Source of the DNA: a bacterium BMS3Abin02
Lineage (GTDB): Bacteria; Actinomycetota; Acidimicrobiia; Spongiisociales; UBA4744
Direction of reading: 5' to 3'
Length of the DNA: 58,250 bases
Assembly (NCBI GenBank): GCA_002897675.1
Contig: BDSU01000020.1
Location: forward strand, 1 to 58,250
Of this stretch, positions 1,578-18,790 are shown piece by piece. Numbering within the stretch: the stretch's first letter is position 1; every line of letters begins with the position of its first letter. The notes beneath the pieces are model-generated. The model searched no databases. It saw only the letters and a list, made by a program, of their open reading frames with translations, and was not told the origin of the DNA. Position numbers and translations under genes: made by a program.

Positions 1578-2597
1578 CTATGGGCGGGGTGGGTTGATCG
1601 ACCCGTCCGAGATTCCCTTGACGGTGTCTTCGGCGAGCTGTTTCACATCCGTCGGCAATGCGTAGCCGGGGTTGTAGCTGATGACTTCGCCGCCGTTCGC
1701 GAGATCGATGGTGAAGGACTTTCCCCCTATCGTGCCCTGGCCCATGAGATCGATGATCTCTTTCATCACGACTTCCCAGTGGTACACCTGCGAGGCGACG
1801 ACGATCGACGGAGCGAGCTGCGTCTGGTCTGCCTGCGTACCGAACCACGGTACGCCGTCGTCCTTCGCCACACCGATCGCGCCGACGACCATCTGCGCCG
1901 TGCCGGTGAGCACGTCGGCGCCGGCTCCGATCTCGGCCCGCGCGGCCTCGGCGGCAAGTGCAACATCGCTGAACGATCCCGTGTAGTTGATCTTCACGTC
2001 CGCATTCGGGTCCTGTGCCGTTGCGCCTGCGGCGAAGCCGTCGACATAGCGTTTCGCGTCGCCGACTTCAATGGGGCCGACCACGCCGAGAACGCCCGAC
2101 TTCGACAGGGCGGCGCCCATCACGCCCATGACGTAGCCGCCTTCCTCAGATGCGGCCTCATAGGCGAAGACGTTCGGAAGTCCAAAGGTGTCACCGGCCG
2201 TTCCCCACGCAAAGGACGTGTCGGGGAAGTCTGGAGCAATCTCCTTGAGAGAACCTCCGTACTGTGAACCGTGGGCGATCACGAGGTCATAGCCGCTGCT
2301 CGCGTAGTCGCGAATGGCGGCTGCCGCATCCTCGACGACGAACGTCGAGTCGGTGACGGCGATCTCCATCGCGGATTCACCACCCATGTCGCTTTGGATC
2401 GACATGAGTGCGTCATACATGCTTTGCGTGAATGCCAGGTCGTTGATGGCGCTGGGAGCGACAAGGGCGACCCGGAAGGGTTTCGGTGCGGCGGTCGTTG
2501 CCGGTGCGGCGGTCGTTTCGGTTGTTCCTCCTCCGCATGCGGCGACGACAAGGGCAAGGACCAGCGCGAATGCGCCGATCGTGAATGGTCTTCTCAT
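1578..2597 (-). CDS. BMP-family substrate-binding lipoprotein
   Basis: Extracytoplasmic solute-binding lipoprotein of the Bmp/PnrA family, which captures nucleosides for the ABC importer. It is 339 residues long. The N-terminus has two arginines, a hydrophobic stretch and the lipobox LVVAAC with the lipidated cysteine at residue 21, followed by a Gly/Thr/Ala-rich linker. The mature domain begins FRVALVAPSAINDLAF, typical of the family. The ATG at 2597 is chosen because an AGAAAGGA ribosome site lies just upstream and the signal peptide starts there. An open extension to 2738 has no signal-like features. It lies between the permease (22 bases upstream) and the ATPase. Purine nucleoside or nucleobase binding is inferred from context, not seen. 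Confidence 0.92.
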   Translation of the reverse strand: MRRPFTIGAFALVLALVVAACGGGTTETTAAPATTAAPKPFRVALVAPSAINDLAFTQSMYDALMSIQSDMGGESAMEIAVTDSTFVVEDAAAAIRDYASSGYDLVIAHGSQYGGSLKEIAPDFPDTSFAWGTAGDTFGLPNVFAYEAASEEGGYVMGVMGAALSKSGVLGVVGPIEVGDAKRYVDGFAAGATAQDPNADVKINYTGSFSDVALAAEAARAEIGAGADVLTGTAQMVVGAIGVAKDDGVPWFGTQADQTQLAPSIVVASQVYHWEVVMKEIIDLMGQGTIGGKSFTIDLANGGEVISYNPGYALPTDVKQLAEDTVKGISDGSINPPRP

Positions 2598-2619
2598 GGG
2601 GACAGTCCTTTCTCTCCGG

Positions 2620-3552
2620 TCATTCCCCTCTTTGATAGGGCTTGGCGAGTGCCGCCGGCTGCCTTTCCTTCTGCACGGCGACGACGAGTGCGAGGATCGT
2701 GATGAGGGCGGGGAGCATTGCGGCGAGATCGGAGGCACTGCGAGGGATGACCCCGAGGGTGTTGAGCTGCAGCACGATCGCGGCCACGAATCCGTAGAGC
2801 AGGGCGCCCAACATGACTCCCAGCGGCCGCCAGGCTCCGAAGTACACGAGTGCGATGGCGATGAACCCTTGCCCGGCCGTCAGGTTCTGTTGGAAGATGC
2901 CGAGCTCGATTGCAAGGGCAGCCCCTCCGATGCCGGCGAGCATGCTGCCGAACATGATGGTCGTATAGCGAATCTTGGCGACCGAGACACCGAGTGTGTC
3001 GGCAGCCTCCGGATTCTCGCCGACCGAGCGGATCTTCAAGCCAAGCGTCGTCTTGTTCAAAATGAAGGCTCCAACAGGGACGAGGAGGAAGGCGCCGTAG
3101 ACTATCACGCTGTGCGAGAACAGCGGTTCTCCGATAACCGGAATGTCGCTCAGAACCGGGAGGTGGATGTCCGGAAAGCCCTGGATCGGGAGTGGTGTGC
3201 CGACGAGTTTCTGAAAGAGCAGAGCACTCATTCCAAGCCCGAAGAGGTAGAAACCGATGCCGCTGATGCCCTGTTCCGCCTGAAGCGTCACGCTGGCGAA
3301 CGCCATCGCGAGGCCCATGAGCAGACCGATCCCTGCCGCGATCGCGAGGCCCAGCCATAGGTCACCTGATTTCAGGACCGTGTAGTAGGCGCCAAAGGCT
3401 CCCAGGAGCATGATACCGTCCACACCGAGGTTCAGAACGCCGCTGCGCTGTCCGAACGTCTCGCCGATTGCCGCGTAGAGGTAGGAAGTCGAGAGACGAA
3501 TGCCCGCGCCGATCGTGGAGACGAGCACGGAAGCGGTGAAGAACTCACTCAT
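2620..3552 (-). CDS. ABC transporter permease, BMP/nucleoside type (second permease)
   Basis: Polytopic inner-membrane permease of the BPD_transp_2 family, 310 residues, like NupQ/YufQ. It begins MSEFFTASVL and has about eight to nine hydrophobic segments. The sequence FGQRSGVLNLGVDGIMLLGA is the conserved early loop of this family, and GENPEAADTLGVSV is the cytoplasmic coupling region that contacts the ATPase. Its start overlaps the 3' end of the first permease by 8 bases, so the two are translationally coupled and likely form a heterodimeric channel. It belongs to the leftward importer operon. Confidence 0.9.
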   Translation of the reverse strand: MSEFFTASVLVSTIGAGIRLSTSYLYAAIGETFGQRSGVLNLGVDGIMLLGAFGAYYTVLKSGDLWLGLAIAAGIGLLMGLAMAFASVTLQAEQGISGIGFYLFGLGMSALLFQKLVGTPLPIQGFPDIHLPVLSDIPVIGEPLFSHSVIVYGAFLLVPVGAFILNKTTLGLKIRSVGENPEAADTLGVSVAKIRYTTIMFGSMLAGIGGAALAIELGIFQQNLTAGQGFIAIALVYFGAWRPLGVMLGALLYGFVAAIVLQLNTLGVIPRSASDLAAMLPALITILALVVAVQKERQPAALAKPYQRGE

Positions 3553-4711
3553 CAGGGGGTGCCCCTGCCACAGCCGGTCCGGTCTCGTCAGGTTGAGCGT
3601 TGGTGGCCCTTACCAGAAGTCGCTGATCGAGGCGGCGTTTCCAGATCGCGCTGCTGACGACGAACACGACGACGAGCCCGTTCAGCGCAATGATGAGCGC
3701 GGCCGGCACCTGTACGACCCGCTGGAGCTTGTTGGCGCCGACGAGGAGGGCCCCGAACAGGAACGATGCCGGAATCGTGCCGAGGGGATTGAGGCCGCCG
3801 AAGAGCGCTACGACGATGCCGTTGTAGCCTGCGCTGCCGGTGAAACCGAAGGAGGAGCCGTCGGTGACGAAGCGATGCGACTCGCTTCCGAAGACGAGGA
3901 TCGCCCCTGCCAGGCCGCAGAGGGCTCCGCTGAGAGTGAGTGCGAGGACGGTGGACCGCTGCACGTGGATGCCGGCGTACCGAGAGGCATGCGGGTTGAG
4001 GCCGACGGCACGAATCCGAAATCCCTCCGTCATACGCCAAAGAAAGAAGTAGGCGACGACGGCAGCGACGATCGAGATGAGAATCCCGGCGTTCAGGCGG
4101 GTCCCTTTGACGAGGATGGGCAGGTCTGCGGCCTGGGCGAGTCGGGCCGTCTGGGGGATGCGACTTCCCGCCTCGATCTCGGCCGGGTCCATCATCGGGC
4201 CGCGCAGAAGGAAGTTCATCGTCTGCACCGCGACGATGTTGAGCATGATCGTGCTCAAGATCTCATTGACGTTGAAGTAGGCCTTCAGGGCTCCCGGGAT
4301 CGCACCCCAGAAGGCTCCGCCGACGAACCCGGCGAGGAGGACCCCGGGCAGGATCAGCCAGGTTGGCAGGTTGGGCATCAGGAGGGCGAACGCCGTACCG
4401 AACAGGGCACCGAGGATGATCTGTCCCTCGCCGCCGATGTTGATCACGTTGGATCGAAAGGCGATCGTGATGCCGACAGCCACCAGAAGGAGCGGAACGG
4501 CCTTTGCGGCGGTGTCCGAGAGGGCACGGAGGCTGCCGAAGGCCCCGTCGATCAGAGCGCCGAATCCGGCGATGGGACTGGCACCGAGTATGAGCAGCAT
4601 GACGCCACCTACCAACAGCGCAGCGACGACGGCGAGGATGGGGAAGAGGGCTCCTGCCAGAGAGCGAAGTTTGAGGCCGAAGGCTTCTTTCTTGATGACG
4701 CCGCCTGCCAC
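3545..4711 (-). CDS. ABC transporter permease, BMP/nucleoside type (first permease)
   Basis: Inner-membrane permease of the BPD_transp_2 family, 388 residues, like NupP/YufP. Features include SNVINIGGEGQIILGA near residues 105-120 and the coupling motif VGLNPHASRYAGI, with many hydrophobic spans. It starts with GTG at 4711, preceded by a modest GAGAAG element, and is the first gene of the leftward importer operon. The 3' end overlaps the next permease. About 230 bases separate it from the divergent carbamoyltransferase operon, so this gap probably holds promoters in both directions. A shared regulatory region would suit co-expression of uptake and catabolism. Confidence 0.9.
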   Translation of the reverse strand: MAGGVIKKEAFGLKLRSLAGALFPILAVVAALLVGGVMLLILGASPIAGFGALIDGAFGSLRALSDTAAKAVPLLLVAVGITIAFRSNVINIGGEGQIILGALFGTAFALLMPNLPTWLILPGVLLAGFVGGAFWGAIPGALKAYFNVNEILSTIMLNIVAVQTMNFLLRGPMMDPAEIEAGSRIPQTARLAQAADLPILVKGTRLNAGILISIVAAVVAYFFLWRMTEGFRIRAVGLNPHASRYAGIHVQRSTVLALTLSGALCGLAGAILVFGSESHRFVTDGSSFGFTGSAGYNGIVVALFGGLNPLGTIPASFLFGALLVGANKLQRVVQVPAALIIALNGLVVVFVVSSAIWKRRLDQRLLVRATNAQPDETGPAVAGAPPDE

Positions 4712-4944
4712 TTCTCGGCCAGCCTACCCGTTCGAACGAGCCTACGGGTTCGAGTCGAAGGTCTTCGGAGCAGACGTGCCCGGTGTCTCGAGCGCCTGGT
4801 CGACCGGGCGATTCGACGTGTGCAGCGAGGGTCTCGGTGGGAAACGGTGGGGAGCGATCGGACATCACGCGAAAAGCGATAGGCTTGGGGCGATCCGCAC
4901 CCGCGTTTCGGTCGAGACGCGGCTTCGAGATGAAGGAGAGAGTC

Positions 4945-5898
4945 ATGAGAAGCTTCGCCGGTCGAGACATTCTGTCCCTCAAGGGATTCGAACGGGCCGA
5001 ATTCGAGCATGTGTTCCAGACCGCCACCGAGCTGGAGCCGATCGCCCGAGAGCGCCGGAACACCGACCTGCTGGCAGACAAGACCCTCCTCACCGCCTTC
5101 TATCAGCCGTCGACCCGAACGAGGATGGCTCACGAAGCTGCAATGCATCGTCTTGGCGGTCATGTGCTGGGCTTTGCCGACGCGAAGATGACCCGTGCAG
5201 GCGACTTCTACCAGGAGTCGATCAAGGACACGGTCCACATGCTGGAGTACTACGGCGACGTGATCGTGATGCGTCACTTCCAGCAGGGAGCTCCACAAGA
5301 GGCCGCGAAATGGTCCAGTGTTCCCGTCATCAACGCCGGGGACGGCTGGGGAGAACACCCGACACAGATCCTTACCGACCTGTACACCGTGCTCACCGAG
5401 AAAGGCACGATCGACGGGTTGACCTTCGTAGCGATCGGAGACATGCGGATGCGGACGATGCATTCGCTCGGCTACGCTCTCACGCAATTCGATGCGCAGA
5501 TGATCTCGGTCGCACCGCCCGAGATGTCGCTCACCGACGACTTCAAAGCCGAACTCGCCGAGCAGAATCTTTTCGTCAGAACGGCCGAGCACGTTGCCGA
5601 CGTCATCGGTGAAGCGGACGTGATCTACATGGAGCCGGTGGTCCAGGCCGACTACACCAAGGGCCGGGATGAGCGTGCTGGTGAGGCCGGCCTCACACCG
5701 GACAACTACAAGGTGACCCGTGCGCTGCTGGCCGACAAGGCCAAGTCGGATGCGATCATCCTGCACTCGCTCCCGCGCATGGACGAACTGCCGGCCGATG
5801 TGGACGCGACCAAGTACGCCCGTTACTGGCAAGAGGCATACAACGGCGTCGTCATGCGAATGGCGCTGCTGGCGCTCGTGCTGGGCGCAACGGAATAG
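4945..5898 (+). CDS. Aspartate-carbamoyltransferase-like enzyme with altered substrate pocket
   Basis: Carbamoyltransferase of the ATCase/OTCase fold, 317 residues, close to PyrB in length. Carbamoyl-phosphate residues are present: STRTR (56-60), Arg110 in VMRH, HPTQ (138-141) and HSLPR (274-278). Two ATCase sites differ. The catalytic loop that carries Ser80 and Lys84 in E. coli aligns with AGDFYQES, where Ala and Tyr stand instead. The aspartate-binding TRVQ motif (Arg229, Gln231) is replaced by MEPVVQ (229-234). The ATG at 4945 is preferred because AGGAGAG precedes it and it gives family length. It begins the operon with YgeW-like transferase and carbamate kinase. I infer a catabolic or non-aspartate transcarbamylase. 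A divergent true PyrB cannot be excluded. Confidence 0.8.
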   Translation: MRSFAGRDILSLKGFERAEFEHVFQTATELEPIARERRNTDLLADKTLLTAFYQPSTRTRMAHEAAMHRLGGHVLGFADAKMTRAGDFYQESIKDTVHMLEYYGDVIVMRHFQQGAPQEAAKWSSVPVINAGDGWGEHPTQILTDLYTVLTEKGTIDGLTFVAIGDMRMRTMHSLGYALTQFDAQMISVAPPEMSLTDDFKAELAEQNLFVRTAEHVADVIGEADVIYMEPVVQADYTKGRDERAGEAGLTPDNYKVTRALLADKAKSDAIILHSLPRMDELPADVDATKYARYWQEAYNGVVMRMALLALVLGATE

Positions 5899-5989
5899 GG
5901 ATGTCGTCAGTTTCCGGTTCCCGATGGTTGACACGGTGTCCCTTTGGCGGGAACGCACTGATGACCGTTGACTGGATAGGGGAGTAGCC

Positions 5990-6964
5990 ATGCAGACTGG
6001 ATTGAGGGGTCGTGACATGATCACGACCCAGGAATGGACCAAGGACGAGATCGACACGGTCATGGATGTTGCGTTCGATCTGAAGCGCAAGCAGGCACTC
6101 GGTGAGCCACACGCCTACCTTCGCGACAAGGTGCTGGCGATGCTGTTCTTCTTCTCGAGTACCCGGACGAGGGCAAGTTTCGAGGCAGGGATGGCGCAGC
6201 TCGGTGGACATGCGATGTTCATGGAGTCACGGACGACACAGATCAGCCATGGGGACACGGCGACCGAGATCGGCGAGATCCTCGGCCGCTACAGCGCAGG
6301 AATCGCGATCCGGCAGGTCGACTGGGGAGTCGGCAACGCCTATCAGCGAGCCGTGGCAGAGGCAAGCCGCGTTCCCGTACTGAACATGCAGTGTGAGATC
6401 TATCACCCGCATCAGATCCTCGCCGATGTCATGACCATCATCGAGAAGAAGGGCGACCCGCGTGGACGCACGCTCAACGTCAGCTACGCGTATGCTTCGA
6501 GTTATCAGAAGCCGCTCAGCGCGCCGCAGAGTCTCATCTTGCTCGCGACCAGATTCGGTATGAATGTGCGCCTGACCCGTCCTCCTGAGTTCAAGCTGAT
6601 GCCGGAGATCGTCGCCCAAGCCGAAGAGAACGCTCGACGGTCCAAGGGATCGTTCGAGATTCTCGAAGACTTCGAGGACGGTTTCCGTGATGCCGACGTC
6701 GTCTACGCGAAGAGCTGGGGAGCGATGCTCACCACCACGGACGACGAGAAGTCGGCGGCAATCGGATCCAAGTACACGGACTGGATCACCGACGAACGGC
6801 GAATGGCTCTCGCGAAGGATGATGCGATCTATATGCATCCGCTCCCGGCCGATCGCAACGTCGAGGTTACCGACGGCGTTCTCGACGGGCCGCACAGCGT
6901 CGTGTTCGACCAGGCGGAGAACCGGCTCCACGCGCAGAAAGCGGTCATGGCGCTGACCATGTAG
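5990..6964 (+). CDS. YgeW-like knotted carbamoyltransferase
   Basis: Second carbamoyltransferase, 324 residues. It carries FFFSSTRTR (S56-R61) and HPHQ (139-142) for carbamoyl phosphate, and HPLPADR (283-289). The segment SYAYASSYQKPLSAPQ (165-180) matches the proline-rich knot loop of the YgeW/acetylornithine transcarbamylase group, and VVYAKSWG (237-244) matches YgeW. The C-terminus (GPHSVVFDQAENRLHAQKA) is OTCase-like. Unlike OTCase and YgeW, which have HCLP, it has HPLP. The protein is about 70 residues shorter than E. coli YgeW. A GGGGAG site lies 6 bases before the ATG. In E. coli, ygeW sits in a purine catabolic cluster with a carbamate kinase, xdh and ssnA genes, the same company as here. 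The physiological substrate is not known. Confidence 0.82.
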   Translation: MQTGLRGRDMITTQEWTKDEIDTVMDVAFDLKRKQALGEPHAYLRDKVLAMLFFFSSTRTRASFEAGMAQLGGHAMFMESRTTQISHGDTATEIGEILGRYSAGIAIRQVDWGVGNAYQRAVAEASRVPVLNMQCEIYHPHQILADVMTIIEKKGDPRGRTLNVSYAYASSYQKPLSAPQSLILLATRFGMNVRLTRPPEFKLMPEIVAQAEENARRSKGSFEILEDFEDGFRDADVVYAKSWGAMLTTTDDEKSAAIGSKYTDWITDERRMALAKDDAIYMHPLPADRNVEVTDGVLDGPHSVVFDQAENRLHAQKAVMALTM

Positions 6965-7019: not shown

Positions 7020-7979
7020 TTGTTGAGCAACACCAGACGACCGCTCGCCGTGGTTGCCATTGGGGGCAACTCGCTGATCAGGGACGCCGAGCACCGCTCG
7101 GTCGAAGATCAGTACATCGCGGCCGGTGAGACAGATCAGCACATTGCCGAGCTGATTCGCACAGGCTGGGATGTCGCGATCACCCATGGGAACGGACCTC
7201 AGGTGGGTTTCATCCTGAGACGCTCCGAGCTCGCAAGGCACGAACTGCACGAGGTTCCGCTCGACGCGTGTGGTGCCGATACCCAGGGAGCGATCGGCTA
7301 CGCGCTCCAGCAGAACCTGTACAACGACTTTCTCCATCTCGGCATCGACAAGACCGCGGTCACGGTCGTGACCCAGGTCGAGGTCGATCGTGCCGATCCG
7401 GCGTTCGAAAACCCGGCAAAGCCGATCGGTACGTTCATGGATGCCGAAGTCGCCGCCCGCCGGCGTGAAGTCGACGGCTGGGAGGTCGTGGAGGACGCCG
7501 GCCGGGGCTGGCGCAGGGTCGTGGCATCGCCTCTTCCAAAGAGGATCGTCGAGATCGAGGCCATTCGGGAGTTGCTCGGAGCAGGGATGGCGGTCATCTG
7601 TGTCGGTGGGGGAGGCATTCCCGTCGTCGCCGACGAGACTGGTGCGCTCAGGGGTGTGCCGGCGGTGATCGACAAGGACCGTGCCTCCGCTCTGCTGGCA
7701 AACGAACTCGATGCGGACCTGCTGCTGATCAGCACCGCTGTCGAGAAAGTGGCGCTGGGCTGGGGCACACCGGAACAACGGTGGGTCGATCGGATGACTC
7801 TCGAGGAGGCGAAACGGCACCTCGCCGAAGGCATCCATTTCGCGGCAGGGAGCATGGCGCCGAAGATCGAGTCAGCGATCACCTTCCTCGAGGGGGGCGG
7901 CCGGGAAGTCCTCATCACGAACCCCGAGAACATCGAACGCGGGGTTGCGGGCAAGACCGGAACTCGGATCGTGCAATGA
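7020..7979 (+). CDS. arcC: Carbamate kinase
   Basis: Carbamate kinase of the amino-acid kinase superfamily, 319 residues. It transfers phosphate between carbamoyl phosphate and ADP, giving ATP, ammonia and CO2 in the catabolic direction. Motifs are AIGGNSL near the N-terminus, THGNGPQVG, VGGGGIPVV, and AGSMAPKIES near residue 280. It starts at a TTG (7020, or the adjacent TTG at 7023) with AGGAG 5-8 bases upstream. Being next to two carbamoyltransferases strongly suggests that it harvests carbamoyl phosphate produced by reverse transcarbamylation, as in arginine deiminase and YgeW/YqeA-type systems. Its ATGA overlap with the next gene indicates tight co-expression. Confidence 0.93.
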   Translation: MLSNTRRPLAVVAIGGNSLIRDAEHRSVEDQYIAAGETDQHIAELIRTGWDVAITHGNGPQVGFILRRSELARHELHEVPLDACGADTQGAIGYALQQNLYNDFLHLGIDKTAVTVVTQVEVDRADPAFENPAKPIGTFMDAEVAARRREVDGWEVVEDAGRGWRRVVASPLPKRIVEIEAIRELLGAGMAVICVGGGGIPVVADETGALRGVPAVIDKDRASALLANELDADLLLISTAVEKVALGWGTPEQRWVDRMTLEEAKRHLAEGIHFAAGSMAPKIESAITFLEGGGREVLITNPENIERGVAGKTGTRIVQ

Positions 7980-9232
7980 CACCAGATCATGTCACGGGCT
8001 TGCGCTGCGTCATCTGCGGAAAGGTCTACGCGCCCGACGAAGTGGAATACGTCTGCCCCGAGCACGGGGATGACGGCATCCTGGATGTCCTGTATGACTA
8101 CGAGCTGATCGGCTCTCGTGTCCAGCGGGACGGGCTCGGGGCAGACTGGTCCATGTGGAGGTACCGGCCGCTGCTGCCAATCGGGGTGGAGGCCGCAGTC
8201 CCACCCCTCGTCGTTGGGTGGACTCCTCTCTACGAGATTCCCGAACAGGCCGAGAAGCTCGGGCTTGGCAGGCTGTGGATCAAAGACGGCGGGCGGGAAC
8301 CTACCGCATCGTTCAAGGATCGGGCGAGCGCAATCGCCATCGTCAAGGCCCACGAGAGCGGAGCAACGGTGATCACGACCGCCTCGACGGGAAATGCCGC
8401 CGCCGCGCTCAGCGGCCTCTGTGCGTCGGTGGGCCAGGAGAACGTGATCTTCGTTCCCCGTTCCGCTCCAGAGGCGAAGATCGCCCAGTTGCTCGCCTTC
8501 GGCTCGACGGTATTCACGGTTCGAGGCACGTACGACGACGCATTCGAACTCTGTCTTCGCGTTGCAGATACGTACGGCTGGTACAACCGCAACACGGCCT
8601 ACAACCCTTACATGAGCGAAGGCAAGAAGACGGCTGCGTACGAGATCGTGGAGCAGCTCGGGTGGGAAGTGCCGGACGCCGTGCTCGTGAGTGTCGGGGA
8701 CGGCTGCATCATCGGGGGTCTCCACAAGGGCTTCAAGGACCTGCTCGCTCTGGGTTGGATCGATCGGATCCCCCGACTCGTCGGTGTCCAGGCCAGGGGA
8801 AGCAACTACTTGGCGGAGGCATGGGAGACGGGCGAGGACGTGCTGAGGAAGCCCGCCATCGCGGCCCAGACCGTCGCGGATTCGATATCGGCAGGGCTGC
8901 CGAGGGATCGGATCAAGGCGATGGCCGCGGTCGTCGAGACCGATGGCGCGTACGTGACCGTCGACGACGACGAGATCCTGGCGGCAATCCCCGCGATGGC
9001 GAGGGCCAGTGGCGTGTTCGGTGAACCGGCCGGTGCAGCCGCGTATGCCGGCCTCCTGAAGGCGAAGGAGATCGGGTTGCTCACCGCCGATGACAAGGTC
9101 GTTGTTCTCAACACCGGAAGTGGCCTGAAAGACGTGGCGTCGGCAGTTCGAGCCGCCGGCATGGCAGGAAGTGTCTCGTACGAGATCACCCCCACCCTGG
9201 AAGCCGTGCGGGCGGTGATGGAGGCTCCGTGA
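7976..9232 (+). CDS. Threonine-synthase-like PLP-dependent enzyme
   Basis: Fold-type II PLP enzyme, 418 residues, most like threonine synthase (ThrC). An N-terminal zinc-ribbon CVIC...CPEH (Cys11, Cys14, Cys27, His30) precedes the catalytic domain. The PLP-forming lysine is Lys114 in ASFKDRA, and STGN (137-140) contacts the cofactor. The phosphate-binding region is SVGDGCIIGG. ATG at 7976 overlaps the carbamate kinase stop (ATGA). Its neighbours are carbamoyltransferases and a second PLP enzyme, not hom or thrB, so a role in purine-fragment or carbamoyl-amino-acid breakdown (beta-elimination or deamination of a diaminopropionate- or serine-like compound) is plausible but inferred. A genuine threonine synthase in an unusual position is the alternative. 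Confidence 0.8.
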   Translation: MTPDHVTGLRCVICGKVYAPDEVEYVCPEHGDDGILDVLYDYELIGSRVQRDGLGADWSMWRYRPLLPIGVEAAVPPLVVGWTPLYEIPEQAEKLGLGRLWIKDGGREPTASFKDRASAIAIVKAHESGATVITTASTGNAAAALSGLCASVGQENVIFVPRSAPEAKIAQLLAFGSTVFTVRGTYDDAFELCLRVADTYGWYNRNTAYNPYMSEGKKTAAYEIVEQLGWEVPDAVLVSVGDGCIIGGLHKGFKDLLALGWIDRIPRLVGVQARGSNYLAEAWETGEDVLRKPAIAAQTVADSISAGLPRDRIKAMAAVVETDGAYVTVDDDEILAAIPAMARASGVFGEPAGAAAYAGLLKAKEIGLLTADDKVVVLNTGSGLKDVASAVRAAGMAGSVSYEITPTLEAVRAVMEAP

Positions 9233-9316: not shown

Positions 9317-10792
9317 ATGATCGATCTCACCATCCACGAAGGCCCGCTCGAGCAGGCACTGCAACGAGCCAGAGAGCGCAACATCATCATCCCCACGTTC
9401 GCCCAGCAGCGTGATCCACGTCTCATCCCGGGTGCCATCAAGGAGAAGTTGCGGGGTGTGGGTCTCTGGGACCTCGACCCGATCAACCTGTTCAGGATCA
9501 CATGGAAGAACGAGCCGGTCTCCAGCGGCGGTGGATTCGGGGGCGTGAACTTCATCGAGTACCCGAAGGAACTCACCGGCATCGATGCACGCGTCGTGTC
9601 GCTCGTGGGAAAGTGGTTTCCGACGGGGGCTCACAAGGTCGGTGCCGCGTTCGGCTGTCTCGTACCACGACTGGTCACCGGGCAGTTCGATCCGACGACC
9701 CAGAAGGCCGTGTGGCCTTCAACCGGCAACTACTGCAGGGGAGGGGCCTACGACTCGCATCTGCTCGCGTGCGACTCCGTTGCGATCCTGCCGGAGGGCA
9801 TGAGTAAGGAGCGCTTCGACTGGCTGGCGAAGGTCGCCGGTGAGGTCATCGCAACCCCGGGCACCGAGAGCAACGTGAAAGAGATCTTCGACAAGACGTG
9901 GGAACTCAAGGCGTCGGGCGAAGACGTCGTGATCTTCAACCAGTTCGACGAGTTCGGCAACTACCTCTGGCACTACACGATCACAGGTCCCGCCATGGCC
10001 GAGGTCATCGAGCAGGTCTTGGGCGCGGGCGATCGCTATCGAGGACTTGCGCTCACCACGGGATCCGCGGGAACGATCGCCTCGGGTGACTACCTGAAGC
10101 AGCAGTATCCGACCTCCAAGATCGTCGCCAGCGAGGCGCTGCAATGTCCCACATTGCTCGAAAACGGGTTCGGGTCCCATCGCATCGAAGGCATCGGTGA
10201 CAAGCACGTGCCGTGGATTCACAACGCGAAGAACACGGACTTCATCACCGCCATCGACGACGAGGCGACGATGCAGCTCCTGCGCCTGTTCAACGAACCC
10301 ACCGGTCAGGAGTACCTGGTCGAGCGGGGCGTGGCGGCAGAGTTCGTGGAGGAACTTCCCCTTCTCGGCATCTCCAGCATCGCCAACATGCTGTCTTCCA
10401 TCAAGTTCGCCAAGTGGAACGAGATGAACCGCAGCGACCTCGTGATCACGGTCGCCACCGACTCGGTGGAGATGTACGGGTCGCGGCTCGAAGAACTGAA
10501 CGAGCAGCGAGGAGCATTTACGCGAGAGGATGCCGTGGTCGCCTACGAGCGGTATCTGATGGGGACCACGACCGACGCGATGGTCGAACTCGATTATTGG
10601 GGACGCAAGCGAATCCACAATCTCAAGTACTACACCTGGGTCGAGCAGCAGGGCAAGACCTACGAGGAGATCCAGGCACAGTGGTACGACGACGACTACT
10701 GGGCATCGATTCAGAGCGAGGTCGGCGAGATGGATCGCCGTATCGAGGCGTTCAACGAGAAGAGCGGCCTGTTGGCGAAACTCGACAACTGA
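9317..10792 (+). CDS. Large fold-type II PLP-dependent enzyme of unassigned function
   Basis: PLP enzyme of 491 residues related to the TrpB/cysteine-synthase superfamily. The cofactor lysine is Lys107 in TGAHKVGAA, a context like TrpB. STGNYCRGG (135-143) would bind the substrate carboxylate or cofactor, and GSAGT (249-253) the PLP phosphate. It is longer than cysteine synthase, serine dehydratase or YgeX, with an extra acidic and aromatic C-terminal region of about 130 residues rich in Tyr and Trp. ATG at 9317 has GGAG 8 bases upstream. It closes the carbamoyltransferase operon. I do not recognise the specific family. Position suggests a lyase or ammonia-lyase acting on an amino acid product of purine breakdown, replacing the YgeX-type diaminopropionate ammonia-lyase of E. 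coli. Confidence 0.7.
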   Translation: MIDLTIHEGPLEQALQRARERNIIIPTFAQQRDPRLIPGAIKEKLRGVGLWDLDPINLFRITWKNEPVSSGGGFGGVNFIEYPKELTGIDARVVSLVGKWFPTGAHKVGAAFGCLVPRLVTGQFDPTTQKAVWPSTGNYCRGGAYDSHLLACDSVAILPEGMSKERFDWLAKVAGEVIATPGTESNVKEIFDKTWELKASGEDVVIFNQFDEFGNYLWHYTITGPAMAEVIEQVLGAGDRYRGLALTTGSAGTIASGDYLKQQYPTSKIVASEALQCPTLLENGFGSHRIEGIGDKHVPWIHNAKNTDFITAIDDEATMQLLRLFNEPTGQEYLVERGVAAEFVEELPLLGISSIANMLSSIKFAKWNEMNRSDLVITVATDSVEMYGSRLEELNEQRGAFTREDAVVAYERYLMGTTTDAMVELDYWGRKRIHNLKYYTWVEQQGKTYEEIQAQWYDDDYWASIQSEVGEMDRRIEAFNEKSGLLAKLDN

Positions 10793-10799
10793 GATCGGA

Positions 10800-10819
10800 G
10801 ACCCACCACGCGGTGGGTC
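10800..10819 (+). terminator. Hairpin after the carbamoyl/PLP operon
   Basis: Perfect 8-bp stem GACCCACC/GGTGGGTC around the loop ACGC, beginning 8 bases after the stop of the large PLP gene. There is no T-run, as is common for actinobacterial terminators. It probably limits read-through into the alcohol dehydrogenase gene. Confidence 0.5.
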
Positions 10820-10873
10820 GGCGTCGAAATCGAGCGTGATCGTGGGTAGCCTTCCGGTGAGGAGATGAAGGCG

Positions 10874-11869
10874 ATGCGCGCGCAGGTTCTGCACAGTCCC
10901 GACACGATCACCGAGGCGCCCCTGGTACTCGAAGAGGTCGCCGATCCGGTACCACGTGCAGGCGAACTCCTGCTCGACGTCTCGGCGTGCGGTGTCTGTC
11001 GCACCGACCTCCAGGAGGTCGAAGGGGATCTCGATCAACACCGAAACCCTGTCATCCCGGGGCACCAGATCGTCGGAGAGGTCGAGGCAATCGGTGCCGG
11101 CGTGACCGGGTGGCAGATCGGAGACCGTGTTGGCGTCGGCTGGCTCGGAGGATCGTGTGGGCGATGTCGGTTCTGCCGTACCGGGCGCGAAAACCTCTGC
11201 GAGGAAGCCGTGTTCACAGGGTGGGATCGTGATGGCGGCTATGCCGAAAAGGTGACGGTGAGTTCCGAGTATGCGTTCCGGCTACCGGCCGAAGCAGGGG
11301 ATCTGGACGTCGCTCCCTTGCTGTGTGGAGGCGTGATCGGCTACCGGGCATTGAAGGTGTCGGGAATACACGCGGGCGGCCGGCTCGGACTCTACGGATT
11401 CGGAGCATCGGCGCTCCTCGCGCTGCAGGTGGCCCGCCACTGGGACTGTGAGGTGTATGTGGCAACGCGATCGGAGGAAGAGCGGAAGCGGGCTCTCGAG
11501 ATGGGAGCGGTGTGGACCGGTGGCTACGAAGACCGCCCACCGGTTCCCCTGGACGCCGCCATCACGTTTGCCCCCGTCGGCCGGGTCGTCGTCGAAGCGC
11601 TGAAGTCGCTCGACCGTGGCGGGGTCGTGGCGATCAACGCCATCCATCTGGACCGTATCCCGGAGTTCCGTTATGAGGACCTATGGTTGGAACGCCAGAT
11701 CCGCAGCGTTGCCAATTTCACGAAAGGAGACGCCGACGAGTTCTTGCGTCTTGCCGCAGAGATCCCGATCCGGACGGTCACACAGGAGTATGCACTTGCG
11801 GATGCCAACAGGGCGCTGCTCGACCTGAAACAGGGGAGCGTGCACGGGGCCGCGGTACTACGAGCGTGA
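10874..11869 (+). CDS. Zinc-dependent alcohol dehydrogenase, AdhA-like
   Basis: Medium-chain zinc alcohol dehydrogenase, 331 residues, oxidising an alcohol or reducing an aldehyde with NAD(P). The catalytic zinc site starts at CGVCRTD and includes GH in IPGHQIVGEV. The structural zinc cysteines lie in GSCGRCRFC and ENLCE. LGLYGFGASALLA is the cofactor-binding turn characteristic of the AdhA group, where a standard GxGxxG is altered. The second ATG at 10874 is preferred because GAGGAG lies at a normal distance; the ATG at 10865 directly abuts that site. It follows the operon hairpin, so it may be a separate unit with its own -10 (TAGCCT at 10847). Any link to purine breakdown is unproven. Confidence 0.85.
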   Translation: MRAQVLHSPDTITEAPLVLEEVADPVPRAGELLLDVSACGVCRTDLQEVEGDLDQHRNPVIPGHQIVGEVEAIGAGVTGWQIGDRVGVGWLGGSCGRCRFCRTGRENLCEEAVFTGWDRDGGYAEKVTVSSEYAFRLPAEAGDLDVAPLLCGGVIGYRALKVSGIHAGGRLGLYGFGASALLALQVARHWDCEVYVATRSEEERKRALEMGAVWTGGYEDRPPVPLDAAITFAPVGRVVVEALKSLDRGGVVAINAIHLDRIPEFRYEDLWLERQIRSVANFTKGDADEFLRLAAEIPIRTVTQEYALADANRALLDLKQGSVHGAAVLRA

Positions 11870-12688: not shown

Positions 12689-12804
12689 GCTCTGGATCTT
12701 ACGCCGACGAGACCCTGAAACAGGTGGTCCCGGTCGATCGGTGGCCGTCGAGGCAGCCGGCCGGCAGATGTCGACGGCGATTCACGCATGATTTGCGACT
12801 CGGC

Positions 12805-12810
12805 TAGGTT
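12805..12810 (+). promoter_or_regulatory. Possible -10 box before the molybdenum hydroxylase operon
   Basis: TAGGTT ends 10 bases before the GTG at 12821, so transcription would begin only 3-4 bases before that codon. No -35 match is seen. It supports GTG over the upstream ATG (12788), which would be upstream of the transcript. Confidence 0.3.
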
Positions 12811-12820
12811 GGCTGATGCA

Positions 12821-13621
12821 GTGCAGATCTTCTCTCCCACCACTGTCGACGAGGCGGTCGACGTCCTCGCGGAGCGACCCGACGCGACGTGTCTCGCAGG
12901 TGGCACGGATCTGATGGTTGAGATCAACTTCGGGTTGCGACGCCCCCGAGAGATCGTGGCCCTGCGCCGGGTCGAGGAGCTCAGAACGATGACCTCGACC
13001 TGGATCGGCGCCGGGGTCACTCATGCCAGGCTCGAGCAGGGTCCGTGGCCGGCTTTGAGCGAGGCGGCGCATACGATCGGCTCGCCTCAGATTCGCAACA
13101 CGGGAACGATCGGCGGGAACATCGCCACGGCAAGTCCTGCCGGCGATACGCTTCCCTTTCTGGCCGCAGCCGATGCCCTGATCGTCACGCGATCAAACCG
13201 CTTCGGGCGTCGGGAGATCCCGTGGGACGAATTCTTCGTCGGCGTCAAGAAGACTGCCCTGGAGCGGGGAGGAATCATCGAAGGAGTCAGGCTTCCCGGC
13301 GAGGCTCCGCTTCGCCAGGGATTCTCGAAGGTCGGGCCCCGTTCCGCGATGGTGATCGCGATCGTGTCGGCATGCGTCCTGCGGTGGGCCGACGGACGCA
13401 CAAGGGTGGCACTCGGCGCGGTCGCGCCGACGGTGATGCGAGCGCGAAGGGCCGAGGAGATGATCTCGGCCGAGCCCAATCCGAGTGCTGCGGCACTCAC
13501 CGAGTTTCAGCGTCTGGTCTCCGAAGAGGCTCGCCCGATCACCGACCACCGATCGACAGAACGCTATCGGCGCCACGCGGTGGGGGTCGTAGCCCGCAGG
13601 ATCCTGGAGCGGCTGTTGTGA
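12821..13621 (+). CDS. Xanthine-dehydrogenase-type FAD-binding subunit
   Basis: FAD subunit of a heterotrimeric molybdenum hydroxylase, about 266 residues. It passes electrons from the 2Fe-2S subunit to NAD or another acceptor. The N-terminal FAD site CLAGGTDLMVEI and IGSPQIRNTGTIGGNIATAS are hallmarks of the FAD_binding_5 family. A CO_deh_flav_C-type domain follows. GTG at 12821 is preferred because family homology starts there (FSPTTVDEAVDVLAE); an ATG at 12788 would add 11 unrelated residues. The gene order FAD, FeS, Mo resembles coxMSL, but the large subunit is of xanthine dehydrogenase type. It overlaps the next gene by GTGA. Confidence 0.9.
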   Translation: MQIFSPTTVDEAVDVLAERPDATCLAGGTDLMVEINFGLRRPREIVALRRVEELRTMTSTWIGAGVTHARLEQGPWPALSEAAHTIGSPQIRNTGTIGGNIATASPAGDTLPFLAAADALIVTRSNRFGRREIPWDEFFVGVKKTALERGGIIEGVRLPGEAPLRQGFSKVGPRSAMVIAIVSACVLRWADGRTRVALGAVAPTVMRARRAEEMISAEPNPSAAALTEFQRLVSEEARPITDHRSTERYRRHAVGVVARRILERLL

Positions 13622-14061
13622 AGTTCACGGTGAACGGCAGGACGGCAGAGGTTCCGGTCGAGGGTCCGCAGAGCCTGTTGCGCGTCTTGCGCGACGATGT
13701 CGGCCTATACGGAGCGAAGGACGCCTGCGAGCAGGGAGAGTGTGGCGCGTGCACGGTGCTGCTGAACGGAGTCCCGGTGTGCTCATGCCTGGTTTTGGCT
13801 GCAGATGCTGAGGGTGCTCATGTCATGACGGTCGAGGGGATTACCCCTGCGGAGGGCTTGCATCCCGTCCAGGAAGCTCTGCTGGACACTGGCGGCGCAC
13901 AGTGCGGCTACTGCACTCCCGGGATCGTCGTGTCTGCAGCCCATCTGTTGGAGCACAACCCTGATCCGACCGAGGAAGAGGTCAGGGAGGCCCTTGCAGG
14001 CAACCTATGCCGTTGTACCGGATACGGCGCCATCATCAGGGCGATCATGGAGGGGACATGA
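13618..14061 (+). CDS. Xanthine-dehydrogenase-type 2Fe-2S subunit
   Basis: Iron-sulfur subunit, 147 residues, relaying electrons from the molybdenum centre to FAD. A plant-ferredoxin-like cluster is formed by Cys37, Cys42, Cys45 and Cys57 (CEQGECGACTVLLNG...C). The second cluster is formed by Cys96, Cys99, Cys131 and Cys133 (CGYCTPG and CRCTGYG). Starts at GTG 13618, overlapping the FAD subunit stop, and ends in an ATGA overlap with the molybdenum subunit, so the three are translated in fixed ratio. All eight cluster cysteines are intact. Confidence 0.96.
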   Translation: MKFTVNGRTAEVPVEGPQSLLRVLRDDVGLYGAKDACEQGECGACTVLLNGVPVCSCLVLAADAEGAHVMTVEGITPAEGLHPVQEALLDTGGAQCGYCTPGIVVSAAHLLEHNPDPTEEEVREALAGNLCRCTGYGAIIRAIMEGT

Positions 14062-16268
14062 CGGTTGTCGGTCGGCGAGTTCGGGGTGGGGTCGGCGAGT
14101 CGGTCCGCCGTCCTGATGGGGTGCCGAAGGTGACCGGCAGGTTCGCGTACGTGGGTGATCTCCACACCGAAGGCATGCTGTGGGGAGCCACCAGGAGGAT
14201 CTACGTTCCACACGGTCGGATCATTCACATCGACATCACACCGGCTCAGGCGATGCCCGGAGTGCAGGCGGTCTTGACACAAGATGATGTGCCGGGGTTC
14301 AAGTACCAAGGTCAAATCGTTCAGGATCAGCCCGTCCTGGCAGAGCAAGAGGTCCGATACTGGGGAGAGCCTGTAGCTCTGGTGGCGGCGGAGAGCCGAG
14401 AGACTGCCCGAGTTGCCGCCGAAGCGATCATCACCGACGTCGAGCCACTCGAGCCGCTCACGAATCTCGAAGAAGCCCTCGACCGGGGAGAGGTGTTTCG
14501 TCACATGACGGTTCGCAGAGGTGACCCCGACGCTCATGGGACGGTTGTGGTGGAAGGGTACTACGAGACACCGAGTGTCGATCAGGCACCGTTGGGGACC
14601 GAAGCAGGTTTGGCTATCCCGGATGGTTCGGGAGGCGTCGACCTCTATCCGCCATCACAGTGGATCCATGTCGATCATGAGCAACTCGTGCGCTGTCTCG
14701 CCCTCGACCCCGAGCAGGTTCGCGTGCATCCAACCGGGCTGGGGGGCGCCTTCGGGTCGCGCGAAGACCTGAGTTTGCACACCCACCTGTGCATGCTCGC
14801 CCTGCGAACCGGGCGTCCGGTGAAGATGGTCTACAGCCGGTTCGAGAGCTTTATCGGCCATGTCAAGCGGCACGGCGCCCATATGTGGTACCGGCACGAG
14901 TCCGACGAGGACGGCAACCTGGTGCGCGTCGATGCGAAGCTGATTCTGGATGGGGGCGCATATGCCAACACCACCCACGCCGTGCTCGCAAACGCCACGT
15001 ACTTCACCGTCGGTCCGTACCGATGCCCGAACACGTTCGTCGAAGGGTATGCGGTGCGCACGAACAATCCTCCCTCGGGGGCGATGAGAGGGTTTGGCGC
15101 CAACCAGGTCTGCTTCGCCTACGAGGCACAAATGGATCGTCTCGCGGATACTCTCGGAATGAATCCACTCGATCTCCGCCTTCGGAACGCATTGAAGCCC
15201 GGGGACCACCTCGCGACGACGGGCCAGGAGATCACCGAACCGCTGCCGACTGCAGAGGTGCTCCGTTCGGTCATGGCGATCCCGATGCCTGACGAGGACT
15301 CGACTCGTTCGCCCGGCGGGAGCGGTCTCACCACCCCGCCCTCGGCAGTCGTCCGAGGGGTTGGCTACGCGGTCGGTATCAAGAACCTTGCGTTTTCGGA
15401 GGGTTTCGACGACTACGCAGATGCGCGCGTCGAGCTGACTGCCGAGGGAGCGAGAGTGCACACGGCCGCCTCCGAGGTCGGACAGGGCATGGTCACGGTT
15501 TTGATGCAGATTGCCCGTAGCGTACTCACCATGGAACAGGTAGAGGTTGTGTGGGACGACACCGCACACATCGGTTCCGCAGGCTCCTCCTCCGCGTCGA
15601 GACAGACACAAATGGCCGGTGGTGCCGTGCAACAGGCGGCGCTGAGCGCTCGGTCCGCTGCGCTGGAGCGGGTTGGCGGCGACGACCTCGATGATGAGGG
15701 TGTCTGGCGCGACGGGCGGCTCGTGGCCACCTGGAACGAACTGTGTGAGAATGGATCGATCGTCGGCGAGGCGCGATTCCGTCATAGGGACACCGATGTG
15801 CCTGACGAGAACGGCCAGGGAAACGTACACGTCGATTTCTGCGTTGCGGCGCATCGGGCGATCGTGGATGTGGACCCTGAACTGGGACTTGTGCGCGTGG
15901 TTCGGATCGATACTGCCCAGGACGTGGGCCGGGCGCTCAACCCTGTGCAGGTGATCGGCCAGATCGAAGGGGGCATCGCACAAGGGTTCGGCATGGCGTT
16001 GCTCGAAGAGGTGATTCTCGACGAAGGCGTGATCAAGAATGCGACCTTTACCGACTATCTGCTTCCCACGATCGAGGACATGCCCCCGGTGGAGACGGTG
16101 CTCGTGGAACAGCCGGGAACGTGGGGGCCGTTTGGAGCGAAAGGTTTCGCGGAGCTGCCGGCCATTTCGTCGACGGCGGCGGTCGTTGCAGCCATTCGAG
16201 CGGCGACGGGGCGTGAGATCAACCGTGTGCCGGTGCACCCCGAGGACATCGCTACTCCGTTCTCGTGA
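14058..16268 (+). CDS. Xanthine-dehydrogenase-type molybdenum-binding subunit
   Basis: Catalytic subunit of a molybdenum hydroxylase, 736 residues, expected to hydroxylate hypoxanthine or xanthine (or a related heterocycle). Cofactor and active-site elements are GGAFGSRED (229-237, including the glutamate equivalent to bovine Glu802), GAMRGFGANQ (341-350, with the arginine equivalent to Arg880), EVGQGM for the pterin, and GAKGFAE near the C-terminus with the general-base glutamate (about 699). The AYRCSFR signature of CO dehydrogenase is absent. Proline of the usual FGxPQ is asparagine here. Placement beside purine deaminases supports purine substrates. The exact substrate is inferred. The maturation factor XdhC is not in the window. 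Confidence 0.9.
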   Translation: MTVVGRRVRGGVGESVRRPDGVPKVTGRFAYVGDLHTEGMLWGATRRIYVPHGRIIHIDITPAQAMPGVQAVLTQDDVPGFKYQGQIVQDQPVLAEQEVRYWGEPVALVAAESRETARVAAEAIITDVEPLEPLTNLEEALDRGEVFRHMTVRRGDPDAHGTVVVEGYYETPSVDQAPLGTEAGLAIPDGSGGVDLYPPSQWIHVDHEQLVRCLALDPEQVRVHPTGLGGAFGSREDLSLHTHLCMLALRTGRPVKMVYSRFESFIGHVKRHGAHMWYRHESDEDGNLVRVDAKLILDGGAYANTTHAVLANATYFTVGPYRCPNTFVEGYAVRTNNPPSGAMRGFGANQVCFAYEAQMDRLADTLGMNPLDLRLRNALKPGDHLATTGQEITEPLPTAEVLRSVMAIPMPDEDSTRSPGGSGLTTPPSAVVRGVGYAVGIKNLAFSEGFDDYADARVELTAEGARVHTAASEVGQGMVTVLMQIARSVLTMEQVEVVWDDTAHIGSAGSSSASRQTQMAGGAVQQAALSARSAALERVGGDDLDDEGVWRDGRLVATWNELCENGSIVGEARFRHRDTDVPDENGQGNVHVDFCVAAHRAIVDVDPELGLVRVVRIDTAQDVGRALNPVQVIGQIEGGIAQGFGMALLEEVILDEGVIKNATFTDYLLPTIEDMPPVETVLVEQPGTWGPFGAKGFAELPAISSTAAVVAAIRAATGREINRVPVHPEDIATPFS

Positions 16269-16313: not shown

Positions 16314-17669
16314 TCAGGGGGTGAGTAGGCGCCGCGCGGCCCTGTTGTGCGCCTCGGTCAACAGTTCGAGATCGACGGTGACGGGCCGTCCGTTCTCGAC
16401 GATGGCCTTTCCTTGAACGTAGGTGTGATCGACCGTCGTCGGGGCACACAGCAGCAGCGCGGCGACCGGGTCCTGCTGGGCTCCCGCATACTCGATGCGC
16501 CCGAGGTCTGTTGCAGTGAAGTCCGCGGCCTTTCCCGAGGCGAGCGAGCCGATATCGTCGCGACCGAGTACGGCGGCCCCACCGAGCGTCGCGATCTCGA
16601 GCGCCGTTCGCACCCCCATGAGAGGTCGCTCGCCGTGGCGGACTCTCGCCAACAACAACGCAAGGCGCGCTTCGCCGAGGAGGTCGTTCCCATCGTTGGA
16701 GGCCGAACCGTCCACTCCCAGGCCGACGCGGACGCCGGCGTCCAGATAGCCCATGACGGGGGCGACACCGGAACCGAGTCGCATGTTGGAGGCCGGACAG
16801 TGGGCGACGCCGGTACCTGTCTCGACCATCAGTCGAATCCCCGCGTCATCGACGTGGACACCGTGGGCGAACCAGACATCGGGCCCAAGCCAACCGACAT
16901 GTTCGGCATATGCAAGAGGTGTCAGGCCGAAGCGCGCGAGGCAGAAATCCTCTTCGTCGGCCGTCTCGGCCAGGTGCGTGTGGAGCGAGACCCCGTAGCT
17001 GCGAGCAAGCTCGGCGGACTCTCGCATGACGGCGGTCGTCACCGAGAAGGGTGAGCACGGCGCGACGACGATGCGCAGCATCGACCCGGGTGTCGGGTCG
17101 TGATACGACTCGATCACTCGCCGCGTGTCCTCGAGGATCGCGTTCTCGTCCTCGACGAGGGAGTCCGGGGGAAGGCCGCCGTCGCTTTCGCCGAGACTCA
17201 TCGAACCGCGAGCCGCGTGGAAACGAATGCCGATTTCCCCGGCTGCGTCGATCGTGTCATCGAGGCGGCTTCCGTTGGGGAACAGGTAGAGGTGGTCGGA
17301 CGTGGTCGTGCACCCGCTGAGAGCCAGTTCGGTGACCCCGACCTTCGTCGAGAGACGAATGTCGTCGGGTGTGATTCTCGCCCAAATCGGGTAGAGGGTC
17401 TGGAGCCAAGGGAAGAGCTCGGCATCTTGTGTTCCGGGGAGCGCTCGTGTGAGCGTCTGATAGAGATGGTGATGTGTGTTGATGAGTCCGGGTATGACGA
17501 CATGTCCGGACACGTCCAGAACCTCATCGGCCGTGTCGGGCAGCTCCGCGGTGGGTCCGACCTGTTCGATCCATCCGTCGCGTGCGAACAGGCCACCATC
17601 GCGGATCTCACGGCGGTCCGGATCCATCGTGACCAGGACGACAGCGTGTTTGACGAGGAGAGTTCCCAT
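16314..17669 (-). CDS. 8-oxoguanine deaminase-like amidohydrolase (SsnA/TrzN family)
   Basis: Cytosolic zinc amidohydrolase, 451 residues, that likely deaminates 8-oxoguanine to urate. GLINTHHHLYQTLTRALPG (61-79) carries the HxH metal ligands (His66, His68) and matches the 8-oxoguanine deaminase signature closely. ELFPWLQTLYPIW follows. Further metal and catalytic residues lie in HTHLAET, FAHGVH and LGVDGSASND. The ATG at 17669 is chosen by family alignment; a TTG at 17720 would add 17 unrelated residues. It is divergent from adenine deaminase across about 116 bases and converges on the molybdenum subunit. SsnA of the E. coli purine cluster is in the same superfamily. Atrazine-type or guanine deaminase activity is a less likely alternative. 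Confidence 0.85.
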   Translation of the reverse strand: MGTLLVKHAVVLVTMDPDRREIRDGGLFARDGWIEQVGPTAELPDTADEVLDVSGHVVIPGLINTHHHLYQTLTRALPGTQDAELFPWLQTLYPIWARITPDDIRLSTKVGVTELALSGCTTTSDHLYLFPNGSRLDDTIDAAGEIGIRFHAARGSMSLGESDGGLPPDSLVEDENAILEDTRRVIESYHDPTPGSMLRIVVAPCSPFSVTTAVMRESAELARSYGVSLHTHLAETADEEDFCLARFGLTPLAYAEHVGWLGPDVWFAHGVHVDDAGIRLMVETGTGVAHCPASNMRLGSGVAPVMGYLDAGVRVGLGVDGSASNDGNDLLGEARLALLLARVRHGERPLMGVRTALEIATLGGAAVLGRDDIGSLASGKAADFTATDLGRIEYAGAQQDPVAALLLCAPTTVDHTYVQGKAIVENGRPVTVDLELLTEAHNRAARRLLTP

Positions 17670-17758
17670 CAGGAGATCGCTTTCTCGGGGCGGTTCTTGC
17701 GTCGATGTCCGGTCGATCAAGACCTCGCTTCGACTTCCGTCTTTGCATCGTACCGGCG

Positions 17759-17764
17759 TAATCT
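17759..17764 (+). promoter_or_regulatory. -10 box for adenine deaminase
   Basis: TAATCT lies 21 bases before the ATG of the adenine deaminase gene, in the divergent gap between the two deaminases, followed by the ribosome site GGGGAAAGG. No good -35 is visible. Confidence 0.4.
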
Positions 17765-17785
17765 TGCCCGAACGGGGAAAGGTGC

Positions 17786-18790
17786 ATGTTGGAGGATTTC
17801 ATCCGAGAGCTGCCGAAGGCCGAGCTGCACATCCATATCGAAGGCTCCCTGGAACCCGAGATGATGATGGCCTTGGCGGAGCGAAACGATATCTCGATTC
17901 CCTTCTCTTCGGTGAAGGAGATCCGGGACGCCTACGAGTTCAGAGACCTGCAGTCGTTTCTCGACATCTACTACGACGGTGCTTCCGTGCTGCGAACCGA
18001 GCAGGACTTCTACGACCTGGCCTGGGCCTACCTCGAGCGCGCTGTTTCCGATGGCGTGAAGCGGGCAGAGATCTTCTTCGATCCTCAGACACACACTTCG
18101 CGCGGTATCGCGTTCTCGACCGTGGTTTCGGGTCTGCGTCGCGCCGTTGACGACGCGCGCGACCTCGGCGTGTCGGCTGCGCTGATCATGTCGTTTCTGC
18201 GCCACCTCAGTCCAGAAGAGGCGATGCAGACACTCGATGACGGCCTCCGGTTCCGTTCGTCACTGATCGGTGTCGGCCTCGACTCCTCCGAGAGAGGGCG
18301 CCCGCCGGAGCTGTTCGCGAAGGTCTTCGCGAGGGCACGGAGCGAGGGACTGCACCTCGTGGCTCACGCAGGCGAGGAGGGCCCACCCGAGTACATCCGC
18401 CAGGCTCTCGACGTCCTGGGGGTCGAGCGGATCGACCATGGTGTCCGGATCGATGAAGATCCTGAACTCGTCCGTCGGATCATCTCGGAACAAATCCCCC
18501 TCACGATGTGTCCGCTCTCCAATGTCAAGCTTCGTGTGGTCGACGAACTCGAACATCACAACCTGAAACGTCTACTCGATGCAGGCGCGATGGTGACGAT
18601 CAACTCCGACGATCCCGCCTACTTCGGTGGGTATATAGCAGACAATTACGAGGCCGCGGCTGCTGCTCTCGGACTGACCAGGACAGAGATCGTGACGATC
18701 GCCCGCAACTCGATCGATGCCGCATTCATCAGCCCCGCCGAACATGAGAATCTCCTGGCGGACCTCGATGTGAGTCAGCTCACGAGATGA
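17786..18790 (+). CDS. Adenine deaminase (adenosine-deaminase fold)
   Basis: Zinc deaminase of 334 residues that converts adenine to hypoxanthine. Zinc ligands His15 and His17 lie in ELHIHIEG, with the HAGEEG and DHGVR motifs and [10 protein letters not shown] downstream. The segments [24 protein letters not shown] and [10 protein letters not shown] are typical of the adenine-specific subgroup of the adenosine deaminase family, rather than adenosine deaminase itself. A GGGGAAAGG site precedes the ATG. It feeds hypoxanthine to the neighbouring xanthine-dehydrogenase-type enzyme. The 3' end overlaps the converging patatin gene by 16 bases. Confidence 0.85.

Follow-up and report, generated by a model that had tools for sequence, protein, structure and literature searches.

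Which reaction is catalyzed by a 491-residue pyridoxal phosphate (PLP) enzyme that is encoded together with carbamoyltransferase and carbamate kinase genes? The protein, referred to here as PLP491, comes from the bacterium BMS3Abin02, and its gene lies in a stretch of 58,250 nucleotides that was analyzed as a whole (the window, Table 1). The initial annotation, made from the sequence alone, described PLP491 as an unrecognised, TrpB-like fold-type II enzyme and suggested an amino-acid lyase or ammonia-lyase at the end of a carbamoyl operon.

Table 1. Features of the window, with coordinates in nucleotides
Feature	Coordinates	Strand	Description	Basis
BMP/PnrA-type nucleoside ABC transporter	1578-4711	-	Binding protein 1578-2738, permeases 2620-3552 and 3545-4711	Pfam Bmp, BPD_transp_2
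CT1	4930-5898	+	Aspartate-carbamoyltransferase-like carbamoyltransferase	Pfam OTCace_N/OTCace; TIGR00670, 254 bits; same order in sister species
CT2	5990-6964	+	Ornithine-carbamoyltransferase-like	E. coli cluster counterpart YgeW, 34% identity
Carbamate kinase	7020-7979	+	YqeA/ArcC type	PRK12352, 384 bits; 51% to E. coli YqeA
ThrCx	7976-9232	+	Threonine-synthase-like fold-type II PLP protein, N-terminal Cys-rich (zinc-ribbon-like) segment	PRK08197, fold, neighbourhood
PLP491	9317-10792	+	Fold-type II PLP enzyme, CysK/CBS branch, family-specific C-terminal region (residues ~412-491)	Translation, PF00291, alignment, AlphaFold2, structure matches
ADH	10865-11869	+	Zinc-binding alcohol dehydrogenase family protein, downstream of PLP491	TIGR02822, 382 bits
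Xanthine-dehydrogenase-type subunits	12788-16268	+	FAD, 2Fe-2S and molybdenum subunits	Pfam/NCBIfam; tblastn with E. coli XdhA/B/C

Fold and conserved residues of PLP491

The reading frame is sound. Its translation contains no internal stops, and the start at MIDL coincides with the first residue of homologues. PLP491 matches PF00291 with 42.2 bits, just above the Pfam gathering score of 35. The AlphaFold2 model, based on 23 aligned sequences, has a pLDDT of 90.7. The predicted core (residues ~34-411) matches structures of O-acetylserine sulfhydrylase (OASS) and cystathionine β-synthase (CBS) with Z scores of ~31-36, the best being 35.6 with an rmsd of 2.5 over 312 residues. The C-terminal ~80 residues, beyond residue ~411, lie outside the alignment to known structures. 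PLP491 falls into the cysteine-synthase/CBS branch of the fold-type II PLP enzymes and has intact catalytic motifs.

The motifs that had been noticed at the outset are all found, in the segments WFPTGAHKVGA (with Lys107), WPSTGNYCRGG and TGSAGT. They align with their counterparts in CysK, and Lys107, Ser135-Thr136-Gly137-Asn138, Gly249-Ser250, Gly252-Thr253 and Ser353 are invariant among 25 diverse homologues. We take Lys107 to be the Schiff-base lysine, followed by the SxGN loop, the glycine-rich phosphate loop (GSxGT) and Ser353 as the C-terminal Ser/Thr near the pyridine nitrogen. Asp382 was considered as a substitute for the usual serine at this position and rejected, as the serine of CysK GISSGA aligns with Ser353 and CysK/CBS relatives also carry an Asp near the later position. 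At the position of GIGAGF in CysK, PLP491 has the sequence GIGDKH. Asp295, Lys296 and His297 of this segment are invariant in the alignment and may contact a charged β-amino group.

The long Tyr/Trp-rich C-terminal region described in the initial annotation is conserved as well. Asn435-Leu436, Tyr438, Thr440-Trp441, Glu443-Gln444-Gln445-Gly446 and Trp462 are invariant in the same 25 homologues, and NLxY[YF]TWVEQQG is a segment specific to PLP491 that is invariant or nearly so.

None of the NCBIfam models that match PLP491 up to E = 10 reaches its cut-off. The scores are 81 bits for CysK (TIGR01139, cut-off 351), 56 bits for CBS (TIGR01137, cut-off 510), 29 bits for SbnA (cut-off 350) and 12.9 bits for YgeX (NF006058, cut-off 276), and no TrpB model is among the matches up to E = 10. 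The description as TrpB-like holds for the local GAHK word only; by profile and by structure the domain is CysK/CBS-like. Ornithine thiolase (OrtB) is a PLP protein of similar size, and it was rejected as the identity of PLP491, since no OrtB model is among the matches up to E = 10.

CysK (OASS) is nearest to PLP491 in fold and profile, with Z scores of 31-36 and ~17-26% identity. The SxGN loop, the glycine loop and the GISS serine are common to the two proteins, while the GIGDKH segment and the C-terminal region, which is outside the CysK alignment, set PLP491 apart. CBS shares the catalytic core fold but leaves PLP491 unaligned beyond residue ~412. SbnA (5d85, Z 31.9) and O-ureido-L-serine synthase (3x43/3x44, Z ~33) are also structural relatives and handle diaminopropionate-type or ureido chemistry; however, both are biosynthetic enzymes of ~310-320 residues and do not have a C-terminal extension of this type. 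YgeX, the 2,3-diaminopropionate ammonia-lyase of E. coli, is likewise a PF00291 enzyme and occupies the same pathway position as PLP491 (see below). PLP491 is not its orthologue, however. YgeX has TTDGNHG where PLP491 has PSTGNYC, and the C-terminal extension and the ThrCx partner are features of PLP491.

Gene neighbourhood and the partner protein ThrCx

The operon encodes another PLP protein, ThrCx, which was absent from the initial annotation. It matches the threonine-synthase fold with Z scores of 41-44. The protein passes the threonine-synthase model PRK08197 only narrowly (305 bits, cut-off 303), yet the genome has another ThrC (G000:C18:32184-33137). Threonine synthase is a likely misannotation of ThrCx, and database entries for the whole group may carry this wrong name. 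A close ThrCx homologue is present at 66 of 88 PLP491 loci. With few exceptions it shares the strand of PLP491 and is either adjacent or about one gene away. The pairwise distances of the two proteins correlate over 84 loci (r = 0.68, with none of 1000 permutations as high), which is expected if their genes travel together. At L027, L055 and ~34 other loci, mostly in Chloroflexota, the two are usually separated by a gene for a ~320-residue family-2 glycosyltransferase-like protein, named by eye from its sequence.

PLP491 is not an isolated oddity. Relatives were confirmed at no fewer than 593 places in public genome contigs, so the family is not due to chance. The best 80 of these at least 593 relatives show 67-75% identity and belong to Chloroflexota, Actinomycetota, Desulfobacterota, Myxococcota and other groups. 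A divergent branch, with 42-50% identity, is found in the class of the window and on plasmids of Bosea and Rhizobium. Its adjoining gene mostly encodes again a ThrC-like PLP protein, with ~20-25% identity to ThrCx, its own lysine and SxGN-type motifs and, in some cases, a similar Cys-rich N-terminus. The proposal that PLP491 alone replaces YgeX, the divergent branch being devoid of ThrCx, was rejected on account of this much-diverged partner in most of the branch.

Two annotated plasmid records name the PLP491 member merely 'pyridoxal-phosphate dependent enzyme'. On the conjugative plasmids of Bosea and Rhizobium (L092, L093), the divergent PLP491 genes have M20 peptidase genes and TauE/SafE exporter genes in their vicinity. 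The Bosea locus also has genes for RidA and γ-glutamyltransferase and an unannotated YgeX homologue (L092:13680-14876). The substrate of the plasmid members may differ. In the sister species (L153:14954-16427, G001:C36), PLP491 is found in two overlapping frames, split near residue 197, which reflects either a genuine lesion or a fault in the assembly.

The position of PLP491 at the end of the carbamoyl operon needs correction in one respect. The carbamoyl genes are indeed upstream, but PLP491 is not plainly the last gene, as the ADH gene lies 72 nt further downstream and runs in the same direction. The ADH gene also follows PLP491 in the sister species, and is next to it in few loci only. A perfect 8-bp inverted repeat without a T-run, GACCCACC-ACGC-GGTGGGTC (window 10800-10819), is located just 3′ of the PLP491 stop; it is possibly a terminator or processing site upstream of the ADH gene. 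A promoter scan found no promoter, a result of little weight for a GC-rich organism. The transporter genes run divergent from the carbamoyl genes. Just past the xanthine dehydrogenase genes, window 16314-18790 encodes a guanine-deaminase-like amidohydrolase and an adenosine deaminase, in divergent orientation. As a whole, the region has the appearance of a cluster for the conversion of nucleosides via uric acid to pyruvate.

Across its loci, genes that recur near PLP491 encode two carbamoyltransferases, carbamate kinase, a BMP-type nucleoside ABC transporter, the hydantoinase HyuA, YgeY, SsnA and YgfK. This set corresponds to the reductive uric-acid pathway of E. coli. The sister species has a single colinear run in the order SsnA-YgfK-CT1-CT2-carbamate kinase-ThrCx-PLP491-ADH. 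A Desulfobacterales genome (L052) has the order ThrCx-PLP491-YgeY-XdhD-like-SsnA-YgeW-YgfK, and YgeX was not found in that genome; apart from the exchange of YgeX, the cluster nearly matches the set in E. coli. The genome of the window itself has SsnA, YgfK and an XdhD-like gene on one contig (C33) and HyuA on another (C2), and YgeX was not found in it. With its carbamoyltransferase and carbamate kinase genes it resembles the reductive uric-acid cluster of E. coli, from which it differs by having PLP491 and ThrCx instead of YgeX and two carbamoyltransferases in one operon. Such tandem ATCase-like and OTC/YgeW-like genes (window 4930-6964) recur in many PLP491 clusters that have no YgeY nearby. 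They may provide phosphorolysis of both ureido groups, with a gain of two ATP.

Co-occurrence with the reductive uric-acid pathway

The distribution of PLP491 was analyzed in the class to which the window belongs. Of its 148 genomes examined, 41 have PLP491, 49 have SsnA, 29 have a strong match to the YgfK N-terminal region and 13 have YgeX. SsnA is present in all 41 genomes with PLP491, compared to 8 of the 107 without it (Fisher p ~7e-29), and all 29 genomes with the strong YgfK match have PLP491. Among the 49 genomes with SsnA, YgeX is found in 7 of the 8 that lack PLP491, compared to 4 of the 41 that have it (p ~3e-5). Most SsnA genomes of the class therefore have PLP491 or YgeX, and only four hold both, so that the two largely replace each other.

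A second sample consisted of 50 PLP491 genomes reached through loci of several phyla. ThrCx is present in 49 of them, usually as a near neighbour of PLP491. SsnA is found in 47 at E ≤ 1e-50 (28 above the curated cut-off), and YgeX is above its cut-off in four and broken in a fifth. The Fisher p-values treat the genomes, many of which are MAGs, as independent and ignore shared ancestry; the recurrence of the same pattern in different phyla is the stronger argument. Fifteen genomes of the class have a divergent PLP491 and neither YgeX nor a close ThrCx, and in some of them PLP491 is far from SsnA. Together with the four genomes that have both PLP491 and YgeX, they point to a possibly wider role for the divergent branch.

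That PLP491 belongs to the reductive uric-acid pathway is well supported by gene context and co-occurrence. The ammonia-lyase role proposed from the carbamoyl genes fits this context, which is narrower than originally described.

Proposed role and alternatives

The anaerobic reductive uric-acid pathway, including the role of YgeX, was worked out in 2025 (PMC12507026) and is discussed in PMC12990295. Its hydantoinase is D-specific, and YgeX takes both isomers of diaminopropionate (PMC12507026). In the survey of that study, every gene with PF00291 in an SsnA neighbourhood was scored as YgeX, a criterion that would take in both PLP491 and ThrCx. A ureidoglycine (allantoate) carbamoyltransferase route is known from Rubrobacter (PMC4016543), and was judged less likely for the operon in the window because the genome has the YgfK/SsnA/HyuA set, which speaks for the reductive route.

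PLP491 and ThrCx probably replace YgeX jointly, with a predicted conversion of 2,3-diaminopropionate to pyruvate and ammonia. Upstream of the two proteins, purine bases would be turned into uric acid. The XdhD, YgfK, SsnA and HyuA homologues would then reduce it and open its rings to give 2,3-diureidopropionate. The two ureido groups would be taken off by the carbamoyltransferases and carbamate kinase, or by YgeY in some lineages, with a gain of ATP on the carbamoyl route. PLP491 and ThrCx would act on the amino acid that results, which is most likely 2,3-diaminopropionate. We infer both this substrate and the elimination chemistry, in which Lys107 would give way to an external aldimine and the β-substituent would be eliminated to produce aminoacrylate, as in cysteine-synthase-type chemistry. 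The two proteins may divide the work by acting on one stereoisomer each, by catalyzing two consecutive steps or by forming one complex. A stereochemical reason for having two enzymes in place of YgeX is plausible in view of the isomer preferences of the hydantoinase and YgeX described above. Counted against joint replacement are the lack of orthology between PLP491 and YgeX, the four class genomes that have both proteins, the fifteen with a divergent PLP491 and neither YgeX nor a close ThrCx, and the presence of two PLP enzymes where one sufficed.

The presence of two intact PLP enzymes together in 49 of 50 genomes can also be read differently, with ThrCx as the final eliminating enzyme and PLP491 as its supplier, either as a racemase (D- to L-diaminopropionate) or as a β-replacing enzyme (diaminopropionate to serine). 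The stereochemistry described above is consistent with a replacement that needs two enzymes, and the nearest solved relatives of PLP491 are β-replacing; its sequence, however, does not tell racemisation or replacement from elimination, and we consider this assignment unlikely. PLP491 might instead act one step earlier, eliminating the ureido group from albizziin or another amino acid with a single such group, and leave ThrCx as the sole diaminopropionate lyase. Its fold is that of β-eliminating or β-replacing enzymes, with O-ureido-L-serine synthase among the structural matches, and many of its clusters have no YgeY nearby. At L045, L052 and L075, however, the pair is accompanied by both a carbamoyltransferase and YgeY, so that both ureido groups are removable there, and two carbamoyltransferases are encoded in the window operon. 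Removing the ureido group by elimination would moreover lose the ATP obtainable from carbamoyl phosphate, and such an earlier step appears quite improbable.

CysK and CBS are the top profile matches, and the plasmid relatives are near sulfite-exporter-family genes, as might be expected of a cysteine-synthase or CBS-like enzyme of sulfur assimilation that is merely co-localised with purine genes. But PLP491 is far under the cut-offs of both models and its presence tracks SsnA and YgfK, which makes a function in sulfur assimilation very improbable. It is least probable by far that PLP491 is a member of a named family (YgeX, TrpB, IlvA or CBS): it shares PF00291 membership with such proteins, but all its NCBIfam scores are far below the cut-offs.

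Joint replacement of YgeX by PLP491 and ThrCx can be extended to a more specific proposal, which is tentative and rather doubtful as a whole. The pair would be an obligate two-PLP-enzyme system with a diaminopropionate route chemically unlike that of YgeX, for example through serine or another β-replaced intermediate or through stereoisomer-specific handling, and it would be a main way in which Chloroflexota and related environmental bacteria recover the carbon of purines anaerobically.

No description of the PLP491-ThrCx pair was found in open-licence PMC papers. The wider system is already known; what is new here is a PLP-enzyme subfamily without a name of its own, together with a variant way in which the pathway ends. 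In many genomes of Chloroflexota, Actinomycetota and Desulfobacterota, the last step is indicated to be carried by an unnamed enzyme of the CysK branch and a protein of the threonine-synthase model, not by YgeX. A large unnamed family thereby gains a clear candidate function, and the pair bears on the question, raised in PMC12990295, of the order in which the last pathway steps proceed and of their stereochemistry.
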